A stretch of DNA of 64,000 bases from a virus. Shown here piece by piece: positions 3,827 to 23,897 of this stretch. The position numbers and the translations under genes are program-made. The stretch is taken from positions 62,001-126,000 of the IMG/VR virus record IMGVR_UViG_3300007770_001284; one strand, 5' to 3'. Numbering within the stretch: the stretch's first letter is position 1; each line of letters opens with the position of its first letter. A model generated the notes under the pieces. The model worked only from the letters and a program-made list of their open reading frames with translations, had not been told where the DNA came from and did no database searches.

Positions 3827-4604
3827 TATGGAATTTGAAACGATATATTGCAATTACGCTGATGAAAATTATGAGCATCATCAAAGAAACATGGTGAACC
3901 ATGTGATTGAAAACGGTATATTCGATTACGTTTGTGACTACACAAGGGAATGGCTTGTGACGACAGAATTTTATAAAGAAAATAAGTCCATTTTAGATAG
4001 AGAGCGCTTAGCTGGGTATATGCTATGGAAACCGTTTATTATTTTAGACGTTTTAGAGAAAGCAAAAGAAAACCAGATTGTTGTTTATATGGACGTGGGT
4101 GATGTGCCCAACAAGGGTATTTCGGATTATGTAAAAAAATGGATGAAAAATAACGATTTATTAATTACGTTGGGCGGAAACAAAAATCGTCAAATGACGA
4201 AAAGAGACACCTTTATTTTAATGGATTGTGAAGAAGAAAAATATTATAACGCTATTCAAGTCGAGGCGGGTTTCTTTGCAGCAAAGAAAACTACAAGTAA
4301 TATTGCTTTTATTCGGGAGTGGCTAGAATATTGTAAGGATGAGAGAATACTAACAGATATTCCAAACCAGCTCGGCGTCTCTAATTTTGATGAGTTTATA
4401 GATCATCGTCATGATCAAAGTATTTTGTCACTTTTACAAGTAAAATATAATATCCAAACATCTTCTAAGCATAGAGGATACGTGGGGTTTAACGTTAATA
4501 TGCACAAAAAGGGTCACAAGTACGCAAATGGCGGGTCTAGTATTGGGACATCTGGGATATTTTCCCATTGGAATAATCGTGGGGAGTGGAGAGCAGAAGA
4601 ATGA
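3819..4604 (+). CDS. Glycosyltransferase-like protein, GT-A type
   Basis: This 261-residue protein contains YMLWKPFIILDVLEKA followed by IVVYMDVGDVPN. That is the W-K-P plus D-x-G-D pattern of a group of nucleotide-sugar-transferase-like proteins common in capsule loci and large viruses. Further on, VEAGFFAAKKT and EFIDHRHDQSILSLL match the acceptor-side and C-terminal motifs of the same group. The MDVGD acidic residues probably take the role of a DxD metal site. Its start overlaps the stop of the preceding gene and its stop overlaps the next start (ATGA), so it is translationally coupled on both sides. Donor and acceptor are unknown. Confidence 0.65.
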   Translation: MSNMEFETIYCNYADENYEHHQRNMVNHVIENGIFDYVCDYTREWLVTTEFYKENKSILDRERLAGYMLWKPFIILDVLEKAKENQIVVYMDVGDVPNKGISDYVKKWMKNNDLLITLGGNKNRQMTKRDTFILMDCEEEKYYNAIQVEAGFFAAKKTTSNIAFIREWLEYCKDERILTDIPNQLGVSNFDEFIDHRHDQSILSLLQVKYNIQTSSKHRGYVGFNVNMHKKGHKYANGGSSIGTSGIFSHWNNRGEWRAEE

Positions 4605-4927
4605 GTAGTGATAAAAAGACATATGTGTTTGATTTGGATAATACGCTATGCGACACGAAGCGAAACGCTGATGATACAGCGTGGGGGTATTTAGACTCTA
4701 AGCCACATCTCGACAGAATAGAGAGAGTAAATGAGCTGTTTCAACAAGGTCACACAATCATTATAGAGACAGCTCGTGGCTCGTTTTCCAAGGTTAATTG
4801 GTATATCCAGACCCATGAGCAATTAACGTCGTGGGGCCTGAAATTCCATCAGTTAAGAACGGGCGTAAAATTTGCTGCCGACTATTTTATTGATGACAAG
4901 GCAATAAATTCAGAGGAGTTTTTTTAG
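4601..4927 (+). CDS. Small HAD-family phosphatase, capsule-locus type
   Basis: This 108-residue minimal HAD protein has all the expected motifs. Motif I is FDLDNTLC, with nucleophile D11 and acid/base D13. Motif II is T57 in ETARG, motif III is probably K90, and motif IV is IDDKA with D98 and D99. There is no large cap domain. Such short HADs are frequent in capsule and LPS loci and probably dephosphorylate a sugar phosphate. It could supply the missing GmhB-like phosphatase step for the heptose enzymes encoded at 12.4-18.4 kb, but nothing in the sequence proves this. The ATG at 4601 overlaps the previous stop (ATGA) and has GGAGAG upstream. It is preferred to a GTG at 4586. Confidence 0.78.
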   Translation: MSSDKKTYVFDLDNTLCDTKRNADDTAWGYLDSKPHLDRIERVNELFQQGHTIIIETARGSFSKVNWYIQTHEQLTSWGLKFHQLRTGVKFAADYFIDDKAINSEEFF

Positions 4928-9420: not shown

Positions 9421-10158
9421 ATGATTGATCTAACCAGAGGATTTGTCTTTATTCACATTGGTAATTGTGCAGGGACAAGTATAGAATACTCCTTACGTGC
9501 TCCATCGACCGAGCTGGTCCCCTGGGATAACAAAGGCGCTACACAGCACCTTACATATTCTGAAATTAAACGCTGGTATTTGGTTCGAGCCTCCCGACCT
9601 GGCCCAATTGGTAAGCATTTGGTACCAGATATATACGCTAAATTCGATAGCTTGTTTAAGTTTACAGTCATAAGAAACCCATGGGATAGAATGGTTGCGA
9701 AATATAGACATGAAGCAAGGCCTTGGAACCAGTGGCTCGAGATTTGCAAAAGCGGTGTGAAAGCAGGGCCCTCATTTAAAGAATTTCTTTTGGGGAGCAA
9801 AGATTGGAATGTTCATGATTTAAACGACCCATTGTTCGACCACCGCCACTGGGCACCATTCCTTAATTGGTTTGGGAAAGATGACCTAAATTTTTATATA
9901 GGGTTTGATAATCTGGACGAAGATTATCAAAAAGTGTGTGGAATACTGGGTATACAAGATGCTCCCTTAAAAGATTTATTTCCAGATATAGGCGGACCAA
10001 TTAGGGCTCCAAATAGGAAATTAGACGAAAGAGGTAATGCACGACGACATTACAGCTATTATTATGATCAAGAGTCAATAGATTTTATTGCAAAAAGATT
10101 TAAAGAAGACATTGATTTTTTTGGGTTTGAATTTGAAGACAAACGACATGCTAAATAA
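9421..10158 (+). CDS. Sulfotransferase family protein (Sulfotransfer_2-like)
   Basis: This probably transfers sulfate from PAPS to a glycan hydroxyl. The 245-residue protein begins with FVFIHIGNCAGTSIEYSL, which corresponds to the 5'-phosphosulfate-binding loop (normally HIPKTAGTS). FTVIRNPWDRMVAKYRH is the 3'-phosphate-binding motif with the conserved R-x-P-x-x-R. The oddity is that the catalytic lysine position of the 5' loop (PK) reads GN here, so activity could be altered or lost. No transmembrane anchor is present, unlike Golgi homologues. A second sulfotransferase lies at 10821, separated by one methyltransferase-like gene. A good ribosome site (GGAGCAAGGA) precedes the ATG. Confidence 0.8.
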   Translation: MIDLTRGFVFIHIGNCAGTSIEYSLRAPSTELVPWDNKGATQHLTYSEIKRWYLVRASRPGPIGKHLVPDIYAKFDSLFKFTVIRNPWDRMVAKYRHEARPWNQWLEICKSGVKAGPSFKEFLLGSKDWNVHDLNDPLFDHRHWAPFLNWFGKDDLNFYIGFDNLDEDYQKVCGILGIQDAPLKDLFPDIGGPIRAPNRKLDERGNARRHYSYYYDQESIDFIAKRFKEDIDFFGFEFEDKRHAK

Positions 10159-10188: not shown

Positions 10189-10833
10189 ATGAGCTTTGCT
10201 GAGTATTTCAAGAAAGAGTTTTATAACAGGCTGCTTAGTCCGAATCACCCTGCAACTGTGCCGCGTGATAGAGCGAGTTGTTTATTGAAGATATTTGAGT
10301 TACTAGATGAAAAAAAGAGTAATGGTCAAAATTATTTTCGTATAGTAGAAACGGGTACAACTCGTCCTGACCATGGACACTTGTGTTTTGGTGATGATGG
10401 GTGCGGTACTTACATTTTTGATAAATTTGTAAACCATTATGATGGGGAAGTATTGTCTGTTGATATCGATGAAAAAAATTGTCGGTACTCTAATGCTCTG
10501 ACATCTGAGAAAACGAAGGTATTCTGTCAAGATTCTGTTGAGATGTTATGGTCTTTACCCGTTGACTTTAAGATTGATTTTCTTTATCTCGATTCTTTTG
10601 ATTTTTCCGCTGAAGACCCCCACCCTTCGATGCTTCATCATGTGAAGGAGCTTTGCGCTGTTATGAAAAATTTAAATCCAGGTGCTTTAATTGTGGTTGA
10701 TGATCATAACGTCGTTGATGATGAGTCTTCGCCAGAGGGTAAAATAGGAAAAGGCTCTTATGTAAAAGACTTCATGTGTAATATAGGCGCGGAGCTGCTT
10801 TTTGAAGGATACCAGATTGGGTGGAAGCTGTGA
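10189..10833 (+). CDS. Methyltransferase-like protein, paralogue of the 2429 gene
   Basis: This 214-residue protein is a near copy, at protein level, of the N-terminal half of the gene at 2429-3826. Both begin MSFA(D/E)YFK, share VETGT with RPDHGHLCFG or RADHGHLCFG, share YIFDKFVNHYDGEVLSVDI, and end with YQIGW. The fold suggested is a class I SAM-dependent methyltransferase-like domain, with a glycine-poor first loop and the acidic motif LYLDSFDFS. Lacking the second domain of the longer paralogue, it represents the stand-alone form. It lies between the two sulfotransferases and overlaps the second by 13 nt. A glycan-modifying role is inferred from position only. The substrate is unknown. 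Confidence 0.6.
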   Translation: MSFAEYFKKEFYNRLLSPNHPATVPRDRASCLLKIFELLDEKKSNGQNYFRIVETGTTRPDHGHLCFGDDGCGTYIFDKFVNHYDGEVLSVDIDEKNCRYSNALTSEKTKVFCQDSVEMLWSLPVDFKIDFLYLDSFDFSAEDPHPSMLHHVKELCAVMKNLNPGALIVVDDHNVVDDESSPEGKIGKGSYVKDFMCNIGAELLFEGYQIGWKL

Positions 10834-11609
10834 CTTGGGGCCCCACTATAGTCTATTATCTAGATGAGCTTAAAATTGCTTATATAGAGATAAAAAAAGC
10901 CGGTTGCACGACTGTCAAGACCTCCCTTGCGAATTATCTTCTTGAAATTGCTGGGGGGTTAGGCCATCACCAAAAATATAAGCCCAATATAGACGGTGTT
11001 GATTACAATTACGGAACATCGATTCATGATGAGTATTTTACGTGGGCCGGGCAATGGAACAGAGTCCAGTCTTTAGGTGATGATTGGACTGTGTTTACTA
11101 TTGCAAGAGAACCAATCGAGAGGTTTGTTTCTGCATTCTATTCCAACGCAGATAGACCATTTTTATACTCGGATATTAACGAGTATATTACAAATCATTT
11201 CTTATATGAAGATGGTTTACTTTCGACCGTGGGCCACAAAAAAATAAATTTGCATAAATTTCGAGAGGATGGTCATATAGTACCGCAGCACAAAATTTTA
11301 GCCAACGTCTCGGCGCGCATCGACTATATAGGGCACTTAGATGATATGGATTCAGCTTCACATTACATAAGCAGCGTTATACGTGATGATAATTTTAAGT
11401 TTGTTCATGCAAATGCCCGTCCATTAAAAAAGCTCAGCGATGATCGCTTTGGACAACCTCGCGAGAAACGGAATTTCGGATGGCCCCGCTTGACAAAAGA
11501 GTCATTGGATATTTTGTTAGAGTTTGGATATAGACAAGATTATGAACTTTTTGATAGGTACGATCCGGAAAAATGGTTACACAATGTATGGGACGGAATT
11601 ATAAGATAG
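10821..11609 (+). CDS. Sulfotransferase family protein (Sulfotransfer_2-like)
   Basis: This second PAPS-dependent sulfotransferase-like protein has 262 residues. IEIKKAGCTTVKTSL is the 5'-phosphosulfate loop and, unlike the upstream paralogue, keeps lysines at the catalytic position. FTIAREPIERFVSAFYSN is the 3'-phosphate motif, matching R-x-P-x-x-R-x-x-S. The C-terminal stretch FGWPRLTKESLDILLEFGY with YRQDYELFDRY is typical of Sulfotransfer_2 proteins. The start is GTG at 10821, overlapping the previous gene. A GTG nine bases further on is an equally possible start. With the gene at 9421 this predicts sulfation of the glycan, using host PAPS, since no PAPS synthase is seen in the window. 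Confidence 0.82.
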   Translation: MEAVTWGPTIVYYLDELKIAYIEIKKAGCTTVKTSLANYLLEIAGGLGHHQKYKPNIDGVDYNYGTSIHDEYFTWAGQWNRVQSLGDDWTVFTIAREPIERFVSAFYSNADRPFLYSDINEYITNHFLYEDGLLSTVGHKKINLHKFREDGHIVPQHKILANVSARIDYIGHLDDMDSASHYISSVIRDDNFKFVHANARPLKKLSDDRFGQPREKRNFGWPRLTKESLDILLEFGYRQDYELFDRYDPEKWLHNVWDGIIR

Positions 11610-12394
11610 CGAACGCTTTGGAAGACATACGCATAGCCGCGTATTTTGGTGGACTGGGTGACAGCCTGCAATTTTCGACGCTTCCAGAACTATTTTCTGA
11701 AGCGGGACACGATGTTTATGTTTGGGACAAAGCATACTTCAGAAATCCTGAGATAAAAGAGCTTGTGTGGGACTGTAATCCTTTTGTGAAGGGAGAGAGA
11801 GCAGGACAATGGAATGCTGGAGACATCCCCGGGCTAAAGTATGAAAATTTATCTGGTAATGTTATCTCTAACTGGGAAACGTTGTTTGGGTTCAAGCCAA
11901 CAAACAAATACCCAAAAATATATTACGAGCCAAAAGATACAAGCAAGGCTAGAAATTCTATTTTGCTAGACTTAACATCAATATCTGGTGATTATCGAGG
12001 CTATTCCGTGTCGGAAGCCGTGGATAAACTGGTTTCTATGTATCCTGGAAGAAGCATATACCAATTGACATTTCACAACTCTTTGAACAACCCTCCAGCA
12101 AGCAATAAAATACAAGAACCATGGAGTAGTCCAAATAATCAAAGATTTTTGTACAATGATTTTGAAAGTGAAAAGATTGTGGTGAATTCGATATTCGAAT
12201 ATTGCGATATGATTTATTCTAGTGATGTTTTTATCACGCTTCATTCAGGGGGTCATGCAGTTTCTAGTGCGATCAAAGAATATAACAGCGATTTAGAGGT
12301 TCACTCTATAATTCGAAAAGTCGATTATGATTACTGCATTCCTCGTGGATTCTTTTTATTCGATAATATCAAATACTCTGTAATTGCCAGGTAA
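11588..12394 (+). CDS. Probable GT-B glycosyltransferase, GT9 (heptosyltransferase)-like
   Basis: This is a divergent protein of 268 residues counted from the ATG at 11588. An ATG at 11573 would add five residues and lengthen the overlap with the sulfotransferase. The N-terminus IAAYFGGLGDSLQFSTLP resembles the GT9 first strand and loop, where heptosyltransferases have a GLGDxxxxTP pattern. Near residue 220 SSDVFITLHSGGHAVSSAI resembles the GT9 C-terminal donor-site segment (D-x-x-x-x-x-D/H-S-G). It immediately precedes the heptose-type adenylyltransferase gene, which fits a transferase that uses ADP-heptose, but the similarity is weak. A structure-based search is needed to accept this call. 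Confidence 0.45.
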   Translation: MGRNYKIANALEDIRIAAYFGGLGDSLQFSTLPELFSEAGHDVYVWDKAYFRNPEIKELVWDCNPFVKGERAGQWNAGDIPGLKYENLSGNVISNWETLFGFKPTNKYPKIYYEPKDTSKARNSILLDLTSISGDYRGYSVSEAVDKLVSMYPGRSIYQLTFHNSLNNPPASNKIQEPWSSPNNQRFLYNDFESEKIVVNSIFEYCDMIYSSDVFITLHSGGHAVSSAIKEYNSDLEVHSIIRKVDYDYCIPRGFFLFDNIKYSVIAR

Positions 12395-12398
12395 TAAA

Positions 12399-12797
12399 TT
12401 GGACAGACATATTTCAAGAAAGGTTGTTTTTACAAATGGGTGTTTCGATATTTTGCACAGGGGACATATAGAGCTCCTACGCTATTGTAACTCTTTGGGG
12501 TACGTTATTGTTGGGTTAAATAGTGATACTAGCGTGAAGAAGTTGAAAGGTAATGGACGACCTTTTTTTTCTCAAGACGATCGAAAATTCATGCTTGAGG
12601 CATGTAGATACGTAGACGAAGTCCGTATTTTTGACGGTGATACGCCATTAGAGATGGTAAAAAATATTTCACCCGATGTGATGGTTAAGGGCGGTGATTA
12701 CGCGCCAGAAGAAGTCGCCGGGAGTGAAGTATGTGAAGTTAAGATATTCAAATTTATCGGTGGTTATTCTACAACAAAAATTCTAGAGAGAGGTTAG
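12399..12797 (+). CDS. Heptose-1-phosphate adenylyltransferase-like (HldE C-terminal domain type)
   Basis: This 132-residue nucleotidyltransferase is very similar in motif order to the C-terminal domain of HldE (RfaE), which makes ADP-D-glycero-beta-D-manno-heptose. It has FTNGCFDILHRGH with the HxGH catalytic motif (H20, H23), then GLNSDTSVKKLKG, DTPLEMVKNISPD, VKGGDYAPEEVAGSE and YSTTKIL. These segments follow HldE-C in order and favour it over TagD-type cytidylyltransferases. A TTG start at 12399 is preferred because AGGT (12389-12392) is well placed. A TTG at 12384 is an alternative. The matching kinase domain is a separate gene at 16893, so the usual bifunctional enzyme is split here. 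Confidence 0.86.
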   Translation: MDRHISRKVVFTNGCFDILHRGHIELLRYCNSLGYVIVGLNSDTSVKKLKGNGRPFFSQDDRKFMLEACRYVDEVRIFDGDTPLEMVKNISPDVMVKGGDYAPEEVAGSEVCEVKIFKFIGGYSTTKILERG

Positions 12798-12799
12798 AG

Positions 12800-13159
12800 T
12801 TGTCAACTTCATTAGAGATCAAATTTGTACCGAAAGGGTGGGGATTTGAGAAGTGGATTGTTAATTGCGATGAGTATTGCGGAAAGCTCCTGTATTTCGT
12901 TAGGGGGAAGTGTTGTTCTTGGCATTACCATGAGTTAAAAGACGAGGTGTTTTATGTCCAGTCGGGCCGAGTTTTAGTCAAGTACTCTGAGGGTGATGAC
13001 ATAAATGAAGCAGATGAAGTTGTTCTGGGCCCTGGCCAAAATTTTCATGTCTATAGGGGTCTTCGCCACAGAGTGATAGCTTTAGAAGACACAGAGCTTT
13101 TTGAATTTTCTACGCAACATTTTGATAGTGATAGTCTTAGGATTGAAAAGGGTGACTGA
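12800..13159 (+). CDS. Cupin-domain sugar isomerase-like protein
   Basis: This 119-residue single-domain cupin begins at TTG (12800), two bases after the adenylyltransferase stop, with AGAGAGG upstream. Metal-binding residues are visible: H42 and H44 in SWHYHELKD, E49, and a late histidine (H90) in YRGLRHRV. The pattern SWHYHELKDEVFYVQSG is shared with mannose-6-phosphate isomerase C-terminal domains and D-lyxose isomerase-like proteins. In sugar clusters such proteins isomerise or epimerise sugar phosphates or bind a metal for them. An intriguing possibility is that it performs an isomerase step near sedoheptulose phosphate, in place of the missing GmhA, but this is speculation. Confidence 0.72.
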   Translation: MSTSLEIKFVPKGWGFEKWIVNCDEYCGKLLYFVRGKCCSWHYHELKDEVFYVQSGRVLVKYSEGDDINEADEVVLGPGQNFHVYRGLRHRVIALEDTELFEFSTQHFDSDSLRIEKGD

Positions 13160-13813
13160 ATGCGCAGAGTTTTGATTACCGGTTGTAGCAGGGGTCTTGG
13201 AAAACACCTCATGAATCATTTTGATTTAAATGATTGTGAAGTTTTTAGGCATACTCGACAGCCTCTAAGCGGAAAAAACCAGTTAGCGGGTGATATAAAC
13301 GCTGATAATTTTTGTGATAATTTGGAAGCATTCGTGGAGGCCAACCAAATTGAGGTTTTTGTGAACAATGCTGCTATCCACAGCCCTCGCGCTTTTCTAG
13401 AATATAGTGAAGCAGATATCAAGGATGTTTTGAACACAAATTTAGTGTCTCAAATATTGATGATACAACGTGTATATAGGATTTTTAAAAAGCGTAATAA
13501 AGGCACAATAGTCAATATTAATTCTCTTGCCGGGCGAGGTCCGTCTGCCAACGAAACGGTGTATTGCGCAAGCAAATACGGTCTAAGAGGGTTTTCTGAG
13601 TCTTTGCAAATCGAGTCGATTGGAACCGATATAAAGATTCTTGATTTTTATCCAGGAGCAATGAAAACTGGCATGTGCAAAAACAGAAGCAATTATGACG
13701 ACCTCATGGACCCGGACGAAGTCGCAGAAACGATTGTTAATATTGTCTTAAAAGAAAGAACTACAATTCTTCCGACAGAAACGATAATTCGTCGATTTTT
13801 GTCAGGAAAGTAA
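13160..13813 (+). CDS. Short-chain dehydrogenase/reductase
   Basis: This 217-residue classical SDR oxidises or reduces a hydroxyl/carbonyl group with NAD(P). It has the cofactor loop ITGCSRGLGKH (TGxxxGxG), VNNAAIHSP (the NNAG-equivalent stabilising motif), a catalytic serine in NINSLAGRG, and YCASK giving Y135 and K139. Arginine in the loop after TGCS suggests NADP(H) preference, which is an inference. It follows the cupin gene directly (stop at 13159, ATG at 13160) and precedes an MDR dehydrogenase, so the two redox enzymes could perform sequential oxidation and reduction of a sugar. The substrate is unknown. Confidence 0.85.
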   Translation: MRRVLITGCSRGLGKHLMNHFDLNDCEVFRHTRQPLSGKNQLAGDINADNFCDNLEAFVEANQIEVFVNNAAIHSPRAFLEYSEADIKDVLNTNLVSQILMIQRVYRIFKKRNKGTIVNINSLAGRGPSANETVYCASKYGLRGFSESLQIESIGTDIKILDFYPGAMKTGMCKNRSNYDDLMDPDEVAETIVNIVLKERTTILPTETIIRRFLSGK

Positions 13814-13823
13814 GGAAATGATT

Positions 13824-14834
13824 ATGAGAGCAGCAATTTTAGAAAAGCTTAATTCTCCACTGACCATCAGAGAGGTTGAACTAACCCCCTTGAAGGTTGG
13901 TCAAGTGCTGGTTAGGATATTAGTAAGCGGGTTATGTGGCGCGCAGTTGCACGAAATAAGGGGACACAAGGGTAACGCAAAATTTCTACCGCACTTAATG
14001 GGACACGAGGGCTGTGGTATTGTTGAGAGCATCGGTAGCGGTGTGACAACAGTTTCCCCGGGTGATAAGGTGGTGATGCACTGGAGGCCCAGTACAGGTA
14101 TCGAAGCGCCATTCCCTGAATACATCCTTAATGGAAAAAAAATAAGCAGCGGAAAGGTAACAACGTTAAGCGAATACTCGATTGTTTCTGAAAACAGATT
14201 GACTGTTGTTCCTCCAGACACTCCCGATAATTTTTGCGCTTTGCTTGGGTGTGGATTGACAACAGCGCTTGGAATTATAGACAACGAAATAGATCTTAAA
14301 ATGGGCGAAAGTGTACTGGTTGTTGGATGCGGAGGTGTGGGGCTGAACCTAATACAAGGTGCAAAGCTAAAGAGCGCTTATCCAATTATCGCTGTTGACG
14401 TTTCCGAAGATAAGCGTATAAAAACCCTCGAGGTCGGTGCATCAACCTTTATTAATCCGCTTAAAGATGATATGACTGCTATTTCTGTCGATGTCATTAT
14501 AGACACAACAGGAAATTCAAGGGTGATTGGCTCTATGGTTCATCATCTTTCTAAAAACGGTAGAATTGTTCTTGTGGGACAGCCCTCCCCAGAAGAAGAA
14601 CTAACTATCCCTAATGGCGTTACTCTTTTTGGTGGCTCTGGAAAATCTATTAAAGCTAGCCAGGGTGGAAAAACTAATCCAGCTGAAGATATACCTCGGT
14701 ATGTTAAGATGCACGATGCAGGTCTCCTAGACGTTGATAAAATTGTTACTCATACATTTACGCTAGAGCAAGTCAATGAAGCGTTTGATCTTTTGCAAAC
14801 GGGTACTGCTGGTCGAATTATGGTGAAGATGTGA
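13824..14834 (+). CDS. Zinc-type alcohol dehydrogenase-like protein (MDR family)
   Basis: This 336-residue medium-chain dehydrogenase has catalytic-zinc residues C38 (GLCGAQLHEIRG) and H61-E62 (GHEGCGIVESIG). A further cysteine, in CALLGCGLTTALG, is the usual third ligand region. The Rossmann motif is VVGCGGVGLNLIQGA. The loop that normally holds four structural-zinc cysteines (about residues 85-115) has none, as in some sugar-cluster MDRs. The ATG at 13824 is chosen because AAGGA (13812-13816) lies seven bases before it. The ATG at 13818 is too close. It probably oxidises or reduces a polyol or keto-sugar. The stop overlaps the next GTG start. Confidence 0.82.
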   Translation: MRAAILEKLNSPLTIREVELTPLKVGQVLVRILVSGLCGAQLHEIRGHKGNAKFLPHLMGHEGCGIVESIGSGVTTVSPGDKVVMHWRPSTGIEAPFPEYILNGKKISSGKVTTLSEYSIVSENRLTVVPPDTPDNFCALLGCGLTTALGIIDNEIDLKMGESVLVVGCGGVGLNLIQGAKLKSAYPIIAVDVSEDKRIKTLEVGASTFINPLKDDMTAISVDVIIDTTGNSRVIGSMVHHLSKNGRIVLVGQPSPEEELTIPNGVTLFGGSGKSIKASQGGKTNPAEDIPRYVKMHDAGLLDVDKIVTHTFTLEQVNEAFDLLQTGTAGRIMVKM

Positions 14835-15643
14835 GTGGTAGCGTTCAAAGATTTTTAGAAGAAATTAAGATTTATGATTGCGGGTTTCAAAAAATAAGAA
14901 TCGGAAACAAGTCAGACGGTGGATATGTTGCTCTTCATGAAATCTGTGAAAATACCAGAACACTATACGCTTTCGGCGTAGAGGATAATATTACGTTTGA
15001 ACAGGATTTTGTAGATAAGTTCCCACACACAGCTGTGAAATTATTCGACCACACAGTCGATAGGCTACCAGCAGAACACCCCAATTTTGCTTTTATTAAA
15101 AAAGGAATTGCCGCAAAAAAGTCAGATCAATTTTTAGCATTGTCAGACATGATTGATTCTGAGGTCGGTGGTTTGACTATTAAGATGGATATTGAGTGGG
15201 ATGAATGGGCAACGCTAGCATCTCTTAGTAGCAAGCAATTGAAAAAGATTGATCAGTTATTAGTTGAATTTCATTTAATCGCTGTGGACACTGATGAAAA
15301 ATTTATTGCCAATCCCAACGATGACTACGGGCTAACTCCTTATTTTGATTCATTTTATAGATCAGTTTATCAGAAGATAAATGTTGGATTGTTTGACATG
15401 TATTACGATGTGATGAAGACCCTTAATGAAAATTTTTACGCTTTTCATATCCACCCAAATAATTCTTTGGGAAAGATTAACGTCGATGGGCATTGTTTTC
15501 CTCCGCTTATTGAAGTAAGTTTTGTGAGAAAAGCGCTGGTAAAAGATGTCAGCGCTTCAACGTGTAATTTTCCTATATCGGGATTAGATTTTCCAAATAA
15601 ACCTTACAAAAAAGAAATTCAAGATTATTATCCATTAGCTTGA
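14831..15643 (+). CDS. Methyltransferase-like protein (METTL24/Methyltransf_22 type)
   Basis: This 270-residue protein has the pattern RIGNKSDGGYVALHE followed by LYAFGVEDNITFEQDF. That is the R-x-G-x-x-x-D-G-G-Y-V and S/A-F-G-x-x-D-x-x-F-E signature of the Methyltransf_22 (METTL24-like) and FkbM-related group. TIKMDIEWDEWATL is the acidic substrate or metal site (D-x-E) characteristic of the same group. The start is GTG at 14831, overlapping the TGA of the preceding dehydrogenase gene (GTGA). It probably methylates a sugar hydroxyl or carboxyl, but the family is poorly characterised. Its place inside the heptose-type sub-cluster (12.4-18.4 kb) suggests the same product. Confidence 0.7.
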   Translation: MSGSVQRFLEEIKIYDCGFQKIRIGNKSDGGYVALHEICENTRTLYAFGVEDNITFEQDFVDKFPHTAVKLFDHTVDRLPAEHPNFAFIKKGIAAKKSDQFLALSDMIDSEVGGLTIKMDIEWDEWATLASLSSKQLKKIDQLLVEFHLIAVDTDEKFIANPNDDYGLTPYFDSFYRSVYQKINVGLFDMYYDVMKTLNENFYAFHIHPNNSLGKINVDGHCFPPLIEVSFVRKALVKDVSASTCNFPISGLDFPNKPYKKEIQDYYPLA

Positions 15644-15652
15644 GGGGAAAGA

Positions 15653-16393
15653 ATGCTGAACAAAAGATCAAAACAGATAAGACGCGAAACCATAAAGCTA
15701 TCCAAAGCAAACGGTGGCTATCATTACGGTGGTTGTTTTTCCGCTGTTGAATTGTTGGTTTCTTTATACGATTATGTGTTAACAGACAACGACAAATTTA
15801 TCTTAAGTAAGGGTCATGCTTGCTGGCCCTATTATGTTTTATTGAGAGAGAGGGGATTCAATCCAAGGTTACAGGGTCACCCCACACTAGACGAAAAGAA
15901 CGGAATTCATTATACCACCGGTAGTGAGGGGCATGGTTTTCCAGCCGCGATAGGAATGGCGCTAGCTAGAAAAATGAAAAACAAGCCCGGGAAAATATAC
16001 GTGATTGTAGGCGATGGAGAGTGTCAGGAGGGAACGACATGGGAATCGTTGCTGCTAGCAGCGCATTACAAGCTAGACAATCTTGTCATAATAGCTGACT
16101 GGAACGGGATACAGGGATCTGGATATACGAAAGACATTTTGCCTATTCCGAATATGGAAAAAGTTACAGCGCTTCTTGGATGGCATGTTTCACAAGTTGA
16201 TGGACATTCTTATGCTGAAATCTTGGCTGCTCTAGAGGAACACGAAAAAGATAAGCCCAGATTTATAATAGCTAATACGATAAAGGGGAAAGGAGTCAGC
16301 TATATGGAGAACCAACCATGTTGGCACGCTCAGTGGCCGGCCCCTGATTATGAAGAACAGGCGATGAAAGAGCTGGAGGATTGTGAAGAATGA
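15653..16393 (+). CDS. Transketolase N-terminal subunit
   Basis: This is the thiamine-diphosphate-binding (PP) domain of a two-subunit transketolase. The 246-residue protein has KANGGYHYGGCFSAVELL, ILSKGHACWPYYVLL, TTGSEGHGFPAAIGMA, and the ThDP/metal motif VGDGECQEGTTWESLL leading to IIADWN. GKGVSYMENQPCWH at the C-terminus supplies the active-site histidine. Length matches stand-alone TktA-type subunits. It is translationally coupled to the Pyr-domain subunit (ATGA overlap at 16390). Transketolase moves two-carbon units between sugar phosphates and could supply sedoheptulose-7-phosphate, the precursor of ADP-heptose, or a rarer ketose. Confidence 0.9.
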   Translation: MLNKRSKQIRRETIKLSKANGGYHYGGCFSAVELLVSLYDYVLTDNDKFILSKGHACWPYYVLLRERGFNPRLQGHPTLDEKNGIHYTTGSEGHGFPAAIGMALARKMKNKPGKIYVIVGDGECQEGTTWESLLLAAHYKLDNLVIIADWNGIQGSGYTKDILPIPNMEKVTALLGWHVSQVDGHSYAEILAALEEHEKDKPRFIIANTIKGKGVSYMENQPCWHAQWPAPDYEEQAMKELEDCEE

Positions 16394-16872
16394 GACGTGC
16401 TTTTGGAAGAGTAATTGTGAAGTTGGCTGAAAAAGATGAGAACATTGTTTTAGTGACTGGAGATGTTGAACAAGAGATGGAGGAATTCAAAGATCGATGG
16501 CCAGAACGATATTTGAACGCTGGGCTCTGTGAGCAATCAATGATCAGTATGGTTGCAGGAATGGCTCTGGAGGGCTTACGTCCAGTTGTCTATTCTATTA
16601 CCCCCTTTCTTATTGAGAGACCGTTTGAGCAGATCAAAATAGACATCGATGAGCAGAAGTTACCTGTAATGCTGGTAGGACAAGCTGATTATCCGACCCA
16701 TGGACCGACACACCGCCCATTAAACCCAGAGGGGCTGATTGGGCTTTTAAAAAATACAATTGGGTATTTCCCCAGAAATCAACAGGAAACTGAAAAAGCA
16801 ATGATCGACGCATATCTTATGGCTGAACCAGCGATTATCTGCATTAAGAGAGACGGTCTTCCCTTTTTCTAA
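16390..16872 (+). CDS. Transketolase C-terminal (Pyr-domain) subunit, short
   Basis: This partner of the preceding gene carries the pyrimidine-binding domain. RRAFGRVIVKLAEKDENIV is the family start. LNAGLCEQSMISMVAGMA contains the catalytic glutamate, E48. VGQADYPTHGPTHRP resembles the conserved loop of the Pyr domain. At 160 residues it is much shorter than usual (around 300), because the third, C-terminal transketolase domain is absent. That domain is not needed for cofactor binding, so activity is plausible. Such short pairs occur in other polysaccharide clusters. The ATGA overlap with the N subunit suggests equal translation. A frameshifted single gene is unlikely, because the break falls cleanly between the domains. 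Confidence 0.86.
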   Translation: MRRAFGRVIVKLAEKDENIVLVTGDVEQEMEEFKDRWPERYLNAGLCEQSMISMVAGMALEGLRPVVYSITPFLIERPFEQIKIDIDEQKLPVMLVGQADYPTHGPTHRPLNPEGLIGLLKNTIGYFPRNQQETEKAMIDAYLMAEPAIICIKRDGLPFF

Positions 16873-16892
16873 AATTTAAGTTAAGCGTGAGA

Positions 16893-17636
16893 ATGAAAAA
16901 GATATTGGTCATAGGAGAAAGTTGTCAGGATATTTTTGTCTATTGTAATGCAAGCCGCTTATGTCCAGATATTCCTGTTCCTGTTCTAAATGAAAAATAT
17001 CGGACTGACAACCCGGGTATGGCTGCTAATGTTCATCGAAACATTCACGCCTTGGGTGTGACAAGCGATATTATTACAAACGATAACTGGGGGGATATTA
17101 CTAAAAAACGGTACGTTCATGAAGAGAGTAATCACATGTTCTTTAGGGCCGATTCGGTAGACGAAATAGAAAGAATAGACTTAAGCGTGATATCATATGA
17201 TTATGACCTGATTGTAATATCAGACTATGATAAGGGTTTCTTGACTGAAGCAGATATAAAAATAATATGCTCAAACCATAATAACGTATTTATTGATTCT
17301 AAGAAAATTTTAGGGACGTGGGTTCATGATGCTAGATATATCAAGATCAATCATACAGAATACCAGCGCTCGAAAAGCTATATTGATAAAACAATGTTCG
17401 AAAAAATTATTCGGACTGAAGGCCCAAGAGGGTGTGTATATAGGGAAGTGGTCTATCCAGTCAACAAGGCTGAGGTAAAAGATGTATCGGGCGCGGGCGA
17501 TAGTTTTCTAGCGGCTCTTGTGGTAAAGTTTTTAGAAAATTCTGATATAATAGAAAGTATAAAATTTGCAAATAAGTGCGCTTCTGAAATTGTTACAAAG
17601 AGGGGGGTTTCAACGATACAATGCAACGTGTATTAG
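16893..17636 (+). CDS. PfkB-family kinase, heptose-7-phosphate kinase-like (HldE N-terminal domain type)
   Basis: This 247-residue ribokinase-fold kinase resembles the N-terminal domain of HldE. It has ILVIGESCQDIFVYCNASR at the start, then CPDIPVPVLNEK, where HldE has S-P-E-A-P-V-P-V. NPGMAANVHRNIHALG is the substrate-binding segment, followed by VISDYDKGFLT and the PfkB signature DVSGAGDSFLAAL, holding the catalytic Asp and anion hole. It is shorter than the typical HldE kinase (about 315 residues), with the middle part compressed. The ATG at 16893 is preferred to a GTG at 16887. With the adenylyltransferase at 12399 it would supply both HldE activities. Another sugar-phosphate kinase role cannot be excluded. 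Confidence 0.8.
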   Translation: MKKILVIGESCQDIFVYCNASRLCPDIPVPVLNEKYRTDNPGMAANVHRNIHALGVTSDIITNDNWGDITKKRYVHEESNHMFFRADSVDEIERIDLSVISYDYDLIVISDYDKGFLTEADIKIICSNHNNVFIDSKKILGTWVHDARYIKINHTEYQRSKSYIDKTMFEKIIRTEGPRGCVYREVVYPVNKAEVKDVSGAGDSFLAALVVKFLENSDIIESIKFANKCASEIVTKRGVSTIQCNVY

Positions 17637-18439
17637 TCACAGGAGCTGACGGTTTTATTGGGAAGAATCTTGCCGCAACCCTAAAAGAAGAAGCGCAAAT
17701 TTTTTGTTTGTCTGAAGACAATTTGGATGACGCTAGATGGAAAGACGTGTGGAACCATTTTCTGGAAGAGGCGTCTCCTGCTGTCATTTTTCATGTCGGC
17801 GCGTGTTCCGACACATTAGAACAAAACGTTAATTTTATGATGCATCGAAATTATGAGACAACAAAGTTTCTAATGGATTGGTGCGTCAACAATAGCGTTC
17901 CAATGATTTACTCTTCTTCTGCTGCAAGCTATGGAGTGACTGAAGACTATCCATCGAACTTATATGGATGGAGTAAGTACGTCGCAGAAGATTATGTGGT
18001 GAGTAATTCTGGCATCGCATTACGTTATTTTAATGTGTATGGCCCGGGGGAGGAACGCAAGGGGAAGATGGCGTCGATTGTGTATCAGATGTACAAAAGG
18101 CACCAAGGAAATTTGGAGTGCAAGTTATTTCCAAAACGACCTCTTCGAGATTTTGTGTATGTGAAAGATGTTGTGTCTGCAAACATTCATGCTTACAAGA
18201 ATTACGAATCGTTAAGAGGATCATACTACGATGTTGGTAGCGGTCAATCAAGGGCATTTGAGGATATTCTTGATTTGCTAGAAATCGAATATTCTTATCA
18301 CTCCACTCACACGATTCCAGAGGGCTATCAATTTTTCACCTGCAGCGATAAAGAAAAGTGGCTACCGGGCTGGGCCCCAGAGTATCAGCTCGAAGCAGGA
18401 ATCGAGGATTATGGAAAAGTATTACGATTACAGCGTTGA
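17621..18439 (+). CDS. ADP-heptose 6-epimerase-like extended SDR (HldD type)
   Basis: This 272-residue extended SDR has the nucleotide loop VTGADGFIGKNLA, then HVGACSDTLEQN and YGWSK with Y115 and K119. RYFNVYGPGEERKGKMASI and RDFVYVKDVVSANI follow. The H-x-G-A-C-S-x-T-x-E motif and the G-x-M-A-S segment are diagnostic of HldD, which inverts C-6 of ADP-D-glycero-D-manno-heptose. It overlaps the kinase gene by 16 nt, so kinase and epimerase are coupled. This is the strongest single indicator that the sub-cluster makes a nucleotide-activated heptose. It is somewhat shorter than E. coli HldD (310 residues). A related epimerase with another substrate remains possible. Confidence 0.84.
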   Translation: MQRVLVTGADGFIGKNLAATLKEEAQIFCLSEDNLDDARWKDVWNHFLEEASPAVIFHVGACSDTLEQNVNFMMHRNYETTKFLMDWCVNNSVPMIYSSSAASYGVTEDYPSNLYGWSKYVAEDYVVSNSGIALRYFNVYGPGEERKGKMASIVYQMYKRHQGNLECKLFPKRPLRDFVYVKDVVSANIHAYKNYESLRGSYYDVGSGQSRAFEDILDLLEIEYSYHSTHTIPEGYQFFTCSDKEKWLPGWAPEYQLEAGIEDYGKVLRLQR

Positions 18440-19070
18440 CGATTATCAATTCGTCGAAGCCATATCTGGTTTATTTGATTGTGGTAATTTACAGTATCTG
18501 CATGAAATGCACATTGACGAATATGAGTTTTTTGATAAGCCGGGAAAAGATTCGGATACCATATTCCATCAAAAGTTTTATAACAAAATGAGATCTGGCT
18601 GGCCAGAATTTCTTGAATTATATCAAAAATTTATTAGAGAATTTATAGCTCCCATTACTAATGCGAAAGACCAACTCATATATCAAAAGTGGCCTACATT
18701 TCGGGTACACCTCCCAAATAACGTAGCAGTGGGCGGATGGCATAAGGATAGCGACTACAATCACCCTCTTGGGGAGACAAATTTTATACTTGCATTAACT
18801 CCTATGTTCGAGAGTAATACAACTATTGCGGAAAGCGAGCCGGGGAAGATGGATTTTCATCAGCTTGAATTAATGCCTGGTCAGATTGTGCGCTTTAATG
18901 GAAACCAGTGCACTCATGGAAACCTCCCTAACAAGACTGGCGTTACCAGGGTGAGTTTCGATTTTAGGATCATGATGCCAGAAGACTATAACTCAAATTA
19001 TCGCTTAACTTCGCTAAGCAAAGGAAACAAATTTCTTATTGGTCACTATTATGAGGTTATGGAGATATGA
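18411..19070 (+). CDS. Fe(II)/2-oxoglutarate-dependent oxygenase-like protein (StrG-like)
   Basis: This 219-residue protein has the iron-binding facial triad of 2OG-dependent oxygenases. H111-x-D113 lies in GGWHKDSDYNHPLGE and a distal histidine, H169, in QCTHGNLPNKTG. VTRVSFDFR carries the arginine expected to bind 2-oxoglutarate. WHKDSDYNHP and the overall length resemble StrG, a protein of streptomycin clusters, and similar proteins in polysaccharide loci. It probably hydroxylates or oxidises a sugar or sugar nucleotide. The exact step is unknown even for StrG. It overlaps the HldD-like gene by 29 nt and the next gene by 4 nt, so it belongs to the same transcript. Confidence 0.75.
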   Translation: MEKYYDYSVDDYQFVEAISGLFDCGNLQYLHEMHIDEYEFFDKPGKDSDTIFHQKFYNKMRSGWPEFLELYQKFIREFIAPITNAKDQLIYQKWPTFRVHLPNNVAVGGWHKDSDYNHPLGETNFILALTPMFESNTTIAESEPGKMDFHQLELMPGQIVRFNGNQCTHGNLPNKTGVTRVSFDFRIMMPEDYNSNYRLTSLSKGNKFLIGHYYEVMEI

Positions 19071-19993
19071 GGGTTGTAATCACAGGCGGAACAGGGATGG
19101 TCGGAGCTGGATTTCGAAGCATAGAGACAGAGCATGAACTTATATTTGTTGGCTCGAAAGATTATGACTTAAGATATCTTGATGATACTCGATGTATGGT
19201 GAGGGACCACTGTCCTGAAGCAATAATACATCTTGCTGCCAGGGTGGGCGGAGTAAAGGGCAACTCTGATTTTGTCGCGGACTTTTTTTCTGATAATATT
19301 CGGATAAATACAAACGTCTTGTCGGTTGCACATAAGCTTGGAGTAGGGAAGGTTGTTTCTTTGTTATCAACTTGCGTATACCCTGATGCAGTTGTGTATC
19401 CTCTAACAGAAGAGCAGATTCATGACGGTGAGCCGCACCCCAGCAACTTTGGTTATGCGTACGCTAAGAGGATGCTGGACGTACACTCAAGGGCCCTTCG
19501 TCAGCAATATGGATGTAACTTCATCTGCGCAGTGCCAAACAATCTGTACGGTCCTTATGATAATTTTGATTTAGAAAATGGGCATGTCATACCATCGATA
19601 ATAAGAAAGGTGTGGGAAGCAAAGCAAACGGGAAATCCACCTGTTCTTTGGGGCGATGGGTCTCCATTAAGGGAATTTACGTACTCAAGAGATATTGCAA
19701 TTGCGTTGCTTTTTTTATTAGAAAATTATGATTTGGCTGCTCCTGTGAATATAGGCACGACAAACGAGGTAAGCATCAAAAACATAGTGAGCATGATTTG
19801 TGAAAGTTTAGAATACGACGGAGAAATTGTTTGGGATATTACAAAGCCAAGCGGTCAATTTAAGAAACCAAGCTCTAATAAGCGCTTTCTTTCTCTTGGT
19901 TGGCCATCTGCCTCGTATACGCCTCTGCGGAAGGGTATACAATTGACATGCAAATGGTTTAAGGAAAGCTATCCAAATGTAAGGGGAGTTTGA
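19067..19993 (+). CDS. fcl: GDP-L-fucose synthase-like epimerase/reductase
   Basis: This is an extended SDR of 308 residues, the usual length of GDP-fucose synthase, which epimerises and reduces GDP-4-keto-6-deoxymannose to GDP-L-fucose. Motifs in order are VITGGTGMVG at residues 4-13, HLAARVGGVKGN (GDP-fucose synthase-type A-A-x-V-G-G), LLSTCVYPD with the catalytic serine, YAYAKRMLDVHSRAL with Tyr/Lys, and NLYGPYDNFDLENGHVIPS, a strong signature of this family. DGSPLREFTYSRDIA completes the match. The GDP-mannose 4,6-dehydratase that makes its substrate is at 22845 and a GT11 enzyme is at 650. It could also make a related 6-deoxyhexose, but fucose is the simplest reading. Confidence 0.88.
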   Translation: MRVVITGGTGMVGAGFRSIETEHELIFVGSKDYDLRYLDDTRCMVRDHCPEAIIHLAARVGGVKGNSDFVADFFSDNIRINTNVLSVAHKLGVGKVVSLLSTCVYPDAVVYPLTEEQIHDGEPHPSNFGYAYAKRMLDVHSRALRQQYGCNFICAVPNNLYGPYDNFDLENGHVIPSIIRKVWEAKQTGNPPVLWGDGSPLREFTYSRDIAIALLFLLENYDLAAPVNIGTTNEVSIKNIVSMICESLEYDGEIVWDITKPSGQFKKPSSNKRFLSLGWPSASYTPLRKGIQLTCKWFKESYPNVRGV

Positions 19994-20704: not shown

Positions 20705-21337
20705 TTGGGATATACGTCTTTTATTTTTGACAATGACGGGGTGCTTGTAGACACCACTGAGCTACAAGTTAAAGCAACGCTAGCAGCAATTGACGAGGTC
20801 TTGAATTTAAAGCTAACAACTCAAGAAGATATTTCTGTCCTTAAGTCAACTATAACTACTCGTGATAAGCTCATAAAGCTTTGTCAAAAGGGGTACTTTA
20901 CTCTTAATAAAGTAGACGCTGTATACGAAAGAAAAAAAATAATCACAAATAAAATGATGAGTATGTTAGACTCTGAAGACTATCAAGACAAAATTGAAAT
21001 GTTTGAATTTTTACGACGAGAAAATAAAAACATAGCGGTAGTAACGAATGCGAACCGTGCTTCGACAGTTACACTACTAAATAATCTTGGTTTTATGAAG
21101 TACCTAGATGTGTTAATAACGAATAATGATGTAAAGAACACAAAGCCACACGCCGAACCATATGTTAGGGCGATGCTTCAATTAGGCGGCTCAATTGAGG
21201 ACTTCATAATATTCGAAGACTCTGTAACAGGTTTAGCCTCGGCTCGCGGCTCAGGCGCAACTGTTTACGAGATCAGCAATTTTAGAGATGTAAATACCCA
21301 ATTGATGGAAGAAATAATAGCGGGAAATTACAAATGA
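20705..21337 (+). CDS. HAD-family phosphatase/phosphoglucomutase-like
   Basis: This 210-residue HAD protein of the beta-phosphoglucomutase-like subfamily has a helical cap inserted after motif I. Motif I is FIFDNDGVLVDT with D9 and D11. VVTNANRAST is motif II, KPHAEPYVRAM gives the motif III lysine, and IIFEDSVTGLASARGSG is motif IV. The start is taken as TTG at 20705, two bases after the previous stop, because GGAG lies nine bases upstream and the protein then begins right before motif I. Longer readings would run back into the nucleotidyltransferase gene. It probably hydrolyses or isomerises a sugar phosphate, and is one of two HAD candidates for the heptose-bisphosphate phosphatase step. 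Confidence 0.8.
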   Translation: MGYTSFIFDNDGVLVDTTELQVKATLAAIDEVLNLKLTTQEDISVLKSTITTRDKLIKLCQKGYFTLNKVDAVYERKKIITNKMMSMLDSEDYQDKIEMFEFLRRENKNIAVVTNANRASTVTLLNNLGFMKYLDVLITNNDVKNTKPHAEPYVRAMLQLGGSIEDFIIFEDSVTGLASARGSGATVYEISNFRDVNTQLMEEIIAGNYK

Positions 21338-21837: not shown

Positions 21838-22848
21838 ATGGAAAACACAAAAAAAGAGACTGTTCTAATAACAGGGGGCGCGGGATTTATTGGCCACGCG
21901 ATAATAGAGCACTTATTAAGGACTACCGATTTTGATATTGTATCGCTTGATCGGCTGGATACATCTGGATGTCTAGACAGGATAAGTGATGTTATTGCGA
22001 AAAACCCATCGTGGCGCCGACGCACTCATGTAATTTGGCACGATCTCAAAGCGCCTTTGAGCGACCATGTTATACACAAGCTGGGGAGAATAGACTACAT
22101 CTTGCATCTTGCAGCAGGTTCTCATGTAAATCGTAGTATACAATATCCTCTTGAGTTTGTGATGGACAATGTGGTTGGTACTTGTAATTTACTGAACTAC
22201 GCGAAGGAACGCTGTGAAACGTTAAAACTGTTTTTATATTTCAGCACTGATGAGGTTTTTGGTCCAGCACCGCCAGGAACCACGTTCAAAGAAAACGACA
22301 GGTATAATGCTAAAAATCCCTACGCTGCAACAAAAGCAGCGGCCGAGGAGCTGTGTAATGCATATGCAAACACGTATAAACTTCCTGTTATCGTCACGCA
22401 TACAATGAACGCATATGGCCCACGACAGCATCTCGAGAAATTTATTCCTATAGTAATAAAGAAGTTACAAAATAATGAAAGTATTGTGATTCACTCAGAC
22501 CGAGGAGGTACAAGACCTTCGAGCCGTCGCTACCTTTTTTCTAGAGACGTTGCTGAAGCTGTAAGATTTTTAATGCTGACGCATACCATTGGGGAAAAAT
22601 ATAACGTTCGAGCGGATGCTGAAACAGATAATTTAACGCTTGCGAAGATGATCGCTTCCATTATGGGAAAAGAGTTAAGGTATGAGTTGAAGTACCCAGA
22701 GCGCACAAGACCAGGAAACGATTTTAGGTATTCTGTGTGCGGGGAAAAATTACAAAAAATGGGGTGGAGGCAGCAAACAAGTTTGGAACAAGGCCTTGAG
22801 GAAACGATACGCTGGTATCTGGACAATCCGACGTGGGGCGTTTTATGA
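21838..22848 (+). CDS. NDP-sugar 4,6-dehydratase-like protein (RmlB-like)
   Basis: This extended SDR of 336 residues resembles dTDP-glucose 4,6-dehydratase. It has TGGAGFIG at residues 12-19, LHLAAGSHVNRSI, STDEVFGP with the T-D-E catalytic triad typical of dehydratases, and NPYAATKAAAEEL with Y162 and K166. NAYGPRQHLEKFIP closes the active-site region. These favour an RmlB-type or related UDP/CDP-sugar dehydratase over a simple epimerase. No RmlC or RmlD is seen, so its keto-sugar product would be used otherwise, perhaps by the aminotransferase. There is a 45-bp gap before the start and no strong Shine-Dalgarno there. Confidence 0.8.
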   Translation: MENTKKETVLITGGAGFIGHAIIEHLLRTTDFDIVSLDRLDTSGCLDRISDVIAKNPSWRRRTHVIWHDLKAPLSDHVIHKLGRIDYILHLAAGSHVNRSIQYPLEFVMDNVVGTCNLLNYAKERCETLKLFLYFSTDEVFGPAPPGTTFKENDRYNAKNPYAATKAAAEELCNAYANTYKLPVIVTHTMNAYGPRQHLEKFIPIVIKKLQNNESIVIHSDRGGTRPSSRRYLFSRDVAEAVRFLMLTHTIGEKYNVRADAETDNLTLAKMIASIMGKELRYELKYPERTRPGNDFRYSVCGEKLQKMGWRQQTSLEQGLEETIRWYLDNPTWGVL

Positions 22849-23897
22849 AAATAGCAATGATCACGGGGGTAACAGGCCAAGACGGATCATATCTTGCCGA
22901 ATTTTTGCTTGAAAAGGGGTATCGTGTTATTGGGTTGAAGAGAAGAACAAGTCTAATTACAACAGACCGAGTGAATGAAATTTATGATAATCCAAATTTT
23001 GAATTGCGATATTACTCTCTGCATGATCCCACAACATTATATCGGTTGCTAGAAGAATACAGACCCTCTGAATTTTATAACCTTGCTGCTCAATCTCATG
23101 TGCGTGTTTCTTTTGACGTCCCCATTGAGACTGTAGACTCGATTGCAATGGGTACATTGCGCATTTTTGAAGCGATTCGTCATGTAGATAAAGAAATAAA
23201 AATATATCAGGCTTCATCTTCAGAGATGTACGGTGATAATCCTACCCATCCCCAGAATGAGAGTACGACATTTATGCCTGTCAGCCCTTACGCTTGCGCT
23301 AAATTATTTGCACATAATCTGTGCCGGAATTATCGTGAAGGATATGGCATGCATATTTCTAGCGGAATTCTTTTTAATCATGAATCACCGCGTCGGGGAG
23401 AAACGTTTGTAACAAAGAAGATAACCCGCGCCGCGGCCAGAATTAAGCTGGGGCTACAAGAAAAATTATATCTCGGGAATTTAGACGCAAAGCGTGACTG
23501 GGGATATGCAGGTGACTATGTGGAGATGATGTGGTTAATGCTACAACAGGACAACCCTGACGATTATGTAATTGCAACAGGAGAAACTCACTCTGTTAGA
23601 GATTGGCTCGAGGCAGTCTTTAAGGAAGCTGGGTTACCGATCGATGGGAACGTAGAGATCGATCATCGCTTGTTTAGACCACATGAAGTACCCTTGCTGC
23701 TGGGTGATCCGTCTAAGGCTAAGGAAAAGCTTGGGTGGGAACCAAAGATGAAATTTCAACAATTAGCAAAGCTAATGTACCAGGCTGATCGACTGGAGGC
23801 CGAAAGAGACCTTCGAGCCGCAGGTCGTGATTTAAAGCTTCAAGGCTTGATGGATGGTCAGAAAATACCATTTCGAGGTTTTAAAAAAATAGAGTAA
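22845..23897 (+). CDS. gmd: GDP-mannose 4,6-dehydratase
   Basis: This converts GDP-D-mannose to GDP-4-keto-6-deoxy-D-mannose. The 350-residue protein has AMITGVTGQDGSYLAEFLL at the N-terminus, the near-invariant Gmd signature, and GLKRRTS, the NADP-binding region. AAQSHVRVSFD, YQASSSEMYG and VSPYACAK (Y149, K153) follow, and GILFNHESPRRGETFVTKK is the strictly conserved substrate loop. LGNLDAKRDWGYAGDYVE adds further support. The ATG at 22845 overlaps the preceding stop (ATGA). The adjacent fucose synthase-like gene at 19067 completes the pathway to GDP-L-fucose. It is one of the most secure calls in the window. Confidence 0.96.
   Translation: MKIAMITGVTGQDGSYLAEFLLEKGYRVIGLKRRTSLITTDRVNEIYDNPNFELRYYSLHDPTTLYRLLEEYRPSEFYNLAAQSHVRVSFDVPIETVDSIAMGTLRIFEAIRHVDKEIKIYQASSSEMYGDNPTHPQNESTTFMPVSPYACAKLFAHNLCRNYREGYGMHISSGILFNHESPRRGETFVTKKITRAAARIKLGLQEKLYLGNLDAKRDWGYAGDYVEMMWLMLQQDNPDDYVIATGETHSVRDWLEAVFKEAGLPIDGNVEIDHRLFRPHEVPLLLGDPSKAKEKLGWEPKMKFQQLAKLMYQADRLEAERDLRAAGRDLKLQGLMDGQKIPFRGFKKIE

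Follow-up and report, generated by a model that had tools for sequence, protein, structure and literature searches.

Here we describe a set of phage genes that probably directs the synthesis of a nucleotide-activated heptose in five steps, with a small cupin protein that would act as the phosphoheptose isomerase. The genes lie in a 64,000-nucleotide stretch of DNA, hereafter the window, that spans positions 62001-126000 of the 254,743-bp virus record IMGVR_UViG_3300007770_001284. Five protein families are involved: a PfkB-type kinase (K), a nucleotidyltransferase (N), an epimerase (E), a HAD phosphatase (H) and the cupin (C). The proposed route is based on homology, retained catalytic motifs, conserved clustering, gene fusion and a mutual exclusion between the cupin and the isomerase GmhA in archaea. 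A broader reading seems to us somewhat more plausible than its negation, namely that many marine phages and DPANN-type archaea use this cupin family, which has no relation to GmhA, as their phosphoheptose isomerase, and that the phages may host a self-contained pathway to ADP-heptose in which unrelated enzymes carry out two of the five steps.

All of the genes named in a first-pass annotation of the window are intact open reading frames (ORFs), at or very near their annotated coordinates. That annotation had recognized divergent homologues of HldE-N, HldE-C and HldD, and these identifications hold. The best NCBIfam match of the nucleotidyltransferase (12384..12797, + strand, with a TTG start at 12384 and another at 12399; T4-GC 304) is TIGR02199, at 146.3 bits, and the next distinct function scores 52; the protein also aligns with E. 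coli HldE-C. The kinase (16887..17636, + strand; T4-GC 305) matches TIGR02198 best (114.6 bits, next distinct function 42), and the epimerase (17621..18439, + strand; T4-GC 308) matches TIGR02197 best (202.1 bits, next distinct function 49). Thus no other kinase or epimerase family comes out ahead. Since the scores fall below the respective equivalog cut-offs (181.5, 345 and 274.6 bits) despite the wide margin over other families, the three proteins are, on sequence grounds, divergent members of the HldE-C, HldE-N and HldD branches and not certified equivalogs. Two more cytidylyltransferase-fold genes are found elsewhere in the record (G000:34862-35152 and G000:250180-250455).

The kinase is about 60 residues shorter than the kinase part of E. 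coli HldE, and in an alignment of the two the RxxPxxPVPV, K-x-R, N...RxD, SDYxKG and GAGD motifs are all kept. When 40 viral and related kinases are combined in a profile and this is compared with the PDB sequences, the best solved relative is HldA (E 4e-24), followed at 6e-10 by the next. The predicted structure of the kinase (pLDDT 92.6) agrees with this, as Foldseek places seven HldA chains ahead of all other matches. For the epimerase the best PDB matches are HldD. Its residues S100, Y115, K119 and K147 align with the Ser, the Tyr-x3-Lys and the second Lys (K178) of E. coli HldD, which we take to be catalytic.

The first-pass annotation had noted a cupin isomerase-like gene and had seen no GmhA. 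The latter holds for the entire 254,743-bp record, in which SIS_2/GmhA has no match at E<=1. The cupin (12800..13159, + strand; T4-GC 307) is 58-66% identical to its cyanophage copies, and the metal ligands H42, H44, E49 and H90, which form a two-motif HxH...E...H site, are invariant in 44 sequences. Its predicted structure (pLDDT 95.4) matches D-lyxose isomerase (2y0o/7nzo), phosphomannose isomerase from T. kodakarensis (7zvy) and KdgF. The first two share the fold and the HxH-E-H metal site with the window cupin, at an identity of about 20%, and other cupin functions score similarly. The fold matches are a mixture of isomerases and dioxygenases, and the fold alone does not settle the reaction.

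It is the archaeal relatives of the cupin that point to the isomerase step, and that strengthen its case as the missing isomerase. In three archaeal metagenome-assembled genomes (MAGs; loci L044, L045 and L049), which were found via the kinase profile, a full-length HldA (TIGR02198, 320-333 bits) carries the cupin as its C-terminal domain. The fusion gene adjoins GmhB and HldC in L044 and L045; its L044 neighbours further include HldD and a protein that looks GT9-like by eye. SIS_2 proteins are missing from all three genomes. Throughout the DPANN heptose operons with this fusion (L044, L045, L049 and L274-L283) the homologous cupin is 38-44% identical, is tied to the HldA step and comes without GmhA. 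These operons differ from the phage set in their full-length kinase, their canonical GmhB and their location in cellular genomes. Further operons (L293 and L294) have the order cupin-HldD-HldA-GmhB::HldC. We found no published description of an HldA::cupin fusion.

An HldA that scores 300 bits or more is present in 29 of 284 genomes related to that of L049. Among these 29, 14 genomes have only the cupin, 11 have only GmhA (at E<1e-20), four have neither and none has both (Fisher p=5e-5, uncorrected for phylogeny). With a laxer HldA limit of 200 bits there are 45 genomes, a single one of which has both (p=5e-4). In genome G282 an HldA::GmhA protein is joined at the fusion point that is used elsewhere by the cupin, and its operon reads HldD-HldC-HldA::GmhA-GmhB. 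The HldA::cupin fusions, the exclusion of GmhA by the cupin and the occurrence of GmhA at the same position together form a sequence pattern of apparent non-orthologous replacement at the isomerase step. Of 43 further genomes from the scan loci, most with a canonical HldA or HldE, only three have the cupin, once on a phage-like contig (L032). In a tree of 66 cupins the viral proteins form one clade (98/90) and the fused archaeal proteins a separate one (90/79). Among the archaeal sequences, an HldA::GmhA fusion protein in an ADP-heptose operon lies at L299:1474-3006, and a three-domain GmhB::cupin::HldC fusion at L284:1009-2520 (- strand).

The phosphatase step could be filled by a C0-type HAD protein at 4601..4927 (+ strand; PHROG 1238). 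The first-pass annotation had offered two HAD proteins as possible GmhB. This one survives as a candidate analogue, while the one at 20705 is rejected, as it is beta-phosphoglucomutase-like and lies outside the conserved gene set. The retained protein matches TIGR01689 (E 5e-6) and is homologous to cyanophage T4-GC 306 (E 1.4e-13); residues D11, D13, T57, K90 and D99 are kept family-wide. TIGR00213, the HAD-IIIA family of GmhB, is not among its matches, so it belongs to a different, TIGR01689-like group of small HAD proteins. T4-GC 306 itself is labelled 'phosphoheptose isomerase' in RefSeq and PHROGs (L022:12725-13069, L023:12275-12613, L024:11658-11993; PHROG 1238). We do not accept that T4-GC 306 is truly a phosphoheptose isomerase, for its proteins of about 110 residues have no SIS match, carry HAD motifs, and have as solved relatives a capsule-biosynthesis protein and an uncharacterised protein, with HAD-like structures. 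The cupin is labelled 'cysteine dioxygenase' in both databases (PHROG 7851). Both labels look wrong to us, the first covering a HAD phosphatase and the second a probable isomerase.

We infer the substrates, the nucleotide, the order of the steps and the final use of the product as follows. The cupin would convert sedoheptulose-7-phosphate, drawn from the pentose-phosphate pathway of the host, into heptose-7-phosphate in place of GmhA. The short HldA-type kinase would then phosphorylate O1, the small C0 HAD would take off the 7-phosphate in place of GmhB, the HldC-like enzyme would transfer a nucleotide, probably adenylate, and the HldD-like enzyme would invert C6. These are the same five logical steps as in the GmhA/GmhB heptose pathway, with a homologous kinase, nucleotidyltransferase and epimerase that retain catalytic motifs; the phage differs in that the shortened kinase is separate from the transferase and in that the cupin and the C0 HAD stand in for GmhA and GmhB. 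The product may feed a phage-made glycan on the virion or the host surface via nearby glycosyltransferases, sulfotransferases and an oxygenase. This is our preferred but unproven use for it. Since cyanobacterial lipopolysaccharide (LPS) is reported to be without heptose (PMC4390846), an activated heptose made by the phage would most probably be destined for the virus's own glycan or for remodelling of the infected host.

The five families are also found together in the cyanophages P-SSM2, S-SM2, S-SSM7, P-TIM68 and Sf-FS3, and in S-CAM3, where N is detected by profile only. In P-SSM2, S-SM2 and S-SSM7 they form the clustered T4-GC 304-308 module, and a test for this module finds all five families in the present record, at 29-66% identity. 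Seven LPS genes, including T4-GC 304, 305, 307 and 308, are known to co-occur in three phages (Sullivan et al. 2010, PMC3037559). The same study names four of the five families, assigns a pathway to none, and leaves it unknown whether the LPS genes are functional or stuffer DNA (PMC3037559). The families are already annotated as LPS genes in cyanophages and the bare observation is not new. What we add is a testable function for a cyanophage gene set whose role stood open in 2010, and a pointer to a family of enzymes, so far unrecognised, that would catalyse the first committed step in making heptose. Literature searches, with most subscription journals and preprints outside their scope, returned nothing on an ADP-heptose pathway in phages and nothing that connects a cupin with phosphoheptose isomerase.

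The present phage differs from the cyanophages in its background, in a HAD gene that lies 8 kb away and in a transketolase (TK)-type rather than E1-type thiamine diphosphate (ThDP) enzyme. We rejected a T4-like cyanophage identity: the family search of this phage has no match to psbA or the photosystem gene family, and the baseplate-like protein at 31994 reaches only about 30% identity with any phage record (Microcystis and Flavobacterium phages). On these grounds the module appears, from sequence comparison, to have crossed between unrelated phages. In the closest relatives (L014-L016) the order is N-H-C-SDR-ADH-ORF-TK-TK-K-E, where SDR and ADH denote a short-chain and an alcohol dehydrogenase, with the HAD between the nucleotidyltransferase and the cupin. 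The following locus counts derive from the best 80 matches of each scan and are not population frequencies. Across 59 non-redundant cupin-anchored viral loci, K is found within 6 kb in 47, N in 48 and the HAD in 50; K, N, H and C stand together in 42, joined by the epimerase in 10, and none of the 59 has a GmhA of at least 60 bits. Around the kinase, N is present in 44 of 73 loci, H in 35, C in 36 and a ThDP enzyme in 34. The module also occurs on contigs filed under Prochlorococcus (L032/L318/L319), Bifidobacterium breve (L035) and Rhodobacteraceae (L037), which look like phage contigs within or next to cell genomes. Only the Prochlorococcus one was checked, by eye: the supposed host copy, L032, lies on a contig with ORFs that resemble T4-type replication genes.

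Several findings weigh against the heptose route and its cupin isomerase. The low scores of K, N and E have been mentioned; in addition, PDB sequence searches match the nucleotidyltransferase to cytidylyltransferases, and nucleotide specificity cannot be read from sequence. Many viral loci have no epimerase, and in many of the loci anchored on the kinase N, H and C are missing within 10 kb. Fisher's test takes no account of phylogeny or of the incompleteness of MAGs. The fold matches of the cupin extend to cysteine dioxygenase, quercetinase and CapF. Finally, five related loci (L036, L137, L138, L148 and L159) have both the cupin and a GmhA-like SIS protein. In L137 and L148 this SIS gene stands in a further block, whose other members are an HddA-like GHMP kinase, a HAD::nucleotidyltransferase fusion and another epimerase. 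Each block there has its own isomerase candidate, kinase, phosphatase and nucleotidyltransferase, and in L137 its own epimerase too; the co-occurrence therefore fits the cupin as isomerase of the first block. Relative to E. coli GmhA, these SIS copies show E65->D and Q172->E. The second sugar-activation blocks, at L137:8377-12200 and L148:10713-14556, lie beside the cupin blocks.

These points leave room for other explanations, whose likelihoods are not mutually exclusive, since the question of the transketolase stands apart from that of the isomerase. The first-pass annotation had proposed that the phage's own transketolase feeds sedoheptulose-7-phosphate into the heptose pathway. TK-like N-terminal (15653..16393, + strand; PF00456, 102 bits) and pyrimidine-binding subunits (16390..16872, + strand; PF02779, 75 bits) do lie directly upstream of the kinase, and they keep the equivalents of TktA H26, H66, H100, H261, E411 and H473 and the Mg/ThDP motif. 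Against this, PF02780, the C-terminal domain of transketolase, has no match in the ThDP proteins of the window, and the equivalents of S385, H461 and D469 are changed, in a region where the alignment is uncertain (we presume the roles of these TktA residues in binding ThDP, in catalysis and in contacting the substrate phosphate). A PDH-E1-like fusion fills the same slot in the cyanophages S-SM2 and P-TIM68, most viral K-N-H-C loci are without an adjacent TK, the record has no transaldolase, and any host with a pentose-phosphate pathway already makes the substrate. An ADH-ThDP enzyme-kinase block also occurs with none of N, H and C within 10 kb (L124, L127 and L130-L133). Because the C-terminal domain is gone, residues are changed, the slot is shared with a PDH-E1-like protein and the block stands alone elsewhere, we treat the ThDP enzyme as a putative accessory unit rather than as the source of sedoheptulose-7-phosphate; a supplying role for this incomplete enzyme is unlikely.

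That same slot, TK-like or PDH-E1-like beside a zinc alcohol dehydrogenase and the kinase, also in loci without N, H and C, lends some weight to the idea that the module makes a different activated sugar, with re-purposed enzymes, a non-sedoheptulose skeleton built by the ThDP enzyme and the two dehydrogenases, and a nucleotide other than ADP. The divergence of all three key enzymes fits this, and in C. jejuni a nucleotidyltransferase-SDR pair proved to yield something unexpected, CDP-6-D-glucitol (PMC10918830). Owing to that precedent we keep this as the least improbable of the alternatives. It has to be set against the retained catalytic and motif residues of HldD, the likewise retained signature of HldA (RxxPxxPVPV...K-x-R...N..RxD), the link of the cupin to true HldA/GmhB/HldC operons in archaea, and the K-N-H-C cores that come without ADH and ThDP genes. 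Equally doubtful as the transketolase supply is the notion that the host provides GmhA activity and that the cupin is a later tailoring enzyme or, as its RefSeq and PHROGs label and some of its fold matches (cysteine dioxygenase and quercetinase) would have it, a dioxygenase; this would leave aside the HldA fusion, the 14/11/0 distribution, GmhA at the same fusion position in G282, and the placement of the co-occurring SIS protein in a separate kinase/HAD/nucleotidyltransferase/epimerase set. Least credible by far is that the genes are functionless cargo, the 'stuffer DNA' raised in 2010 for cyanophages. Their sporadic distribution would suit it, as would the large LPS clusters to which the biggest cyanophages owe their additional genome size (PMC3037559). 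Yet the reading frames are intact, active-site residues are invariant across 40-44 diverse sequences and the clustering recurs in unrelated phages. The heptose route with a cupin isomerase thus remains our favoured reading.

The remaining genes of the cluster lie between the cupin and the ThDP subunits. A short-chain dehydrogenase (13160..13813, + strand; PF00106) stands upstream of the ADH-ThDP-kinase genes, in an order conserved in several phages. The zinc alcohol dehydrogenase (13818..14834, + strand; PF08240/PF00107) adjoins the ThDP enzyme, and its order with the ThDP enzyme and the kinase is likewise conserved. The ORF between them (14831..15643, + strand) is conserved next to the TK-type ThDP enzyme and has homologues in L014, L137 and L139; it has no Pfam, NCBIfam or PHROG family match and looks FkbM-methyltransferase-like by eye only. 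Downstream of the epimerase follows a 2OG-Fe(II) oxygenase-like gene (18411..19070, + strand; TIGR04324, E 4e-4), which we link to the cluster by association only. The first-pass annotation had also pointed to a GT9-like heptosyltransferase at 11588. We dropped this candidate, as the ORF (11573-12394) has no Pfam, NCBIfam or PHROG support.

The wider island contains glycosyltransferases, sulfotransferases, GDP-mannose-dehydratase-like and fucose-synthase-like proteins and an oxygenase. The sulfotransferase-like genes, at 9421-10158 and 10821-11609 of the window (with a Pfam match for the second only), suggest a sulfated glycan. A GDP-fucose-synthase-like gene at 19067-19993 and a GDP-mannose-4,6-dehydratase-like gene at 22833-23897 (the latter by sequence only) hint at a possible second activated sugar. 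Finally, the genes at 2429-3826 and 10189-10833 encode near-duplicate proteins, both starting MSFA.YFK..FY.RL, the longer of which has an extra C-terminal part.

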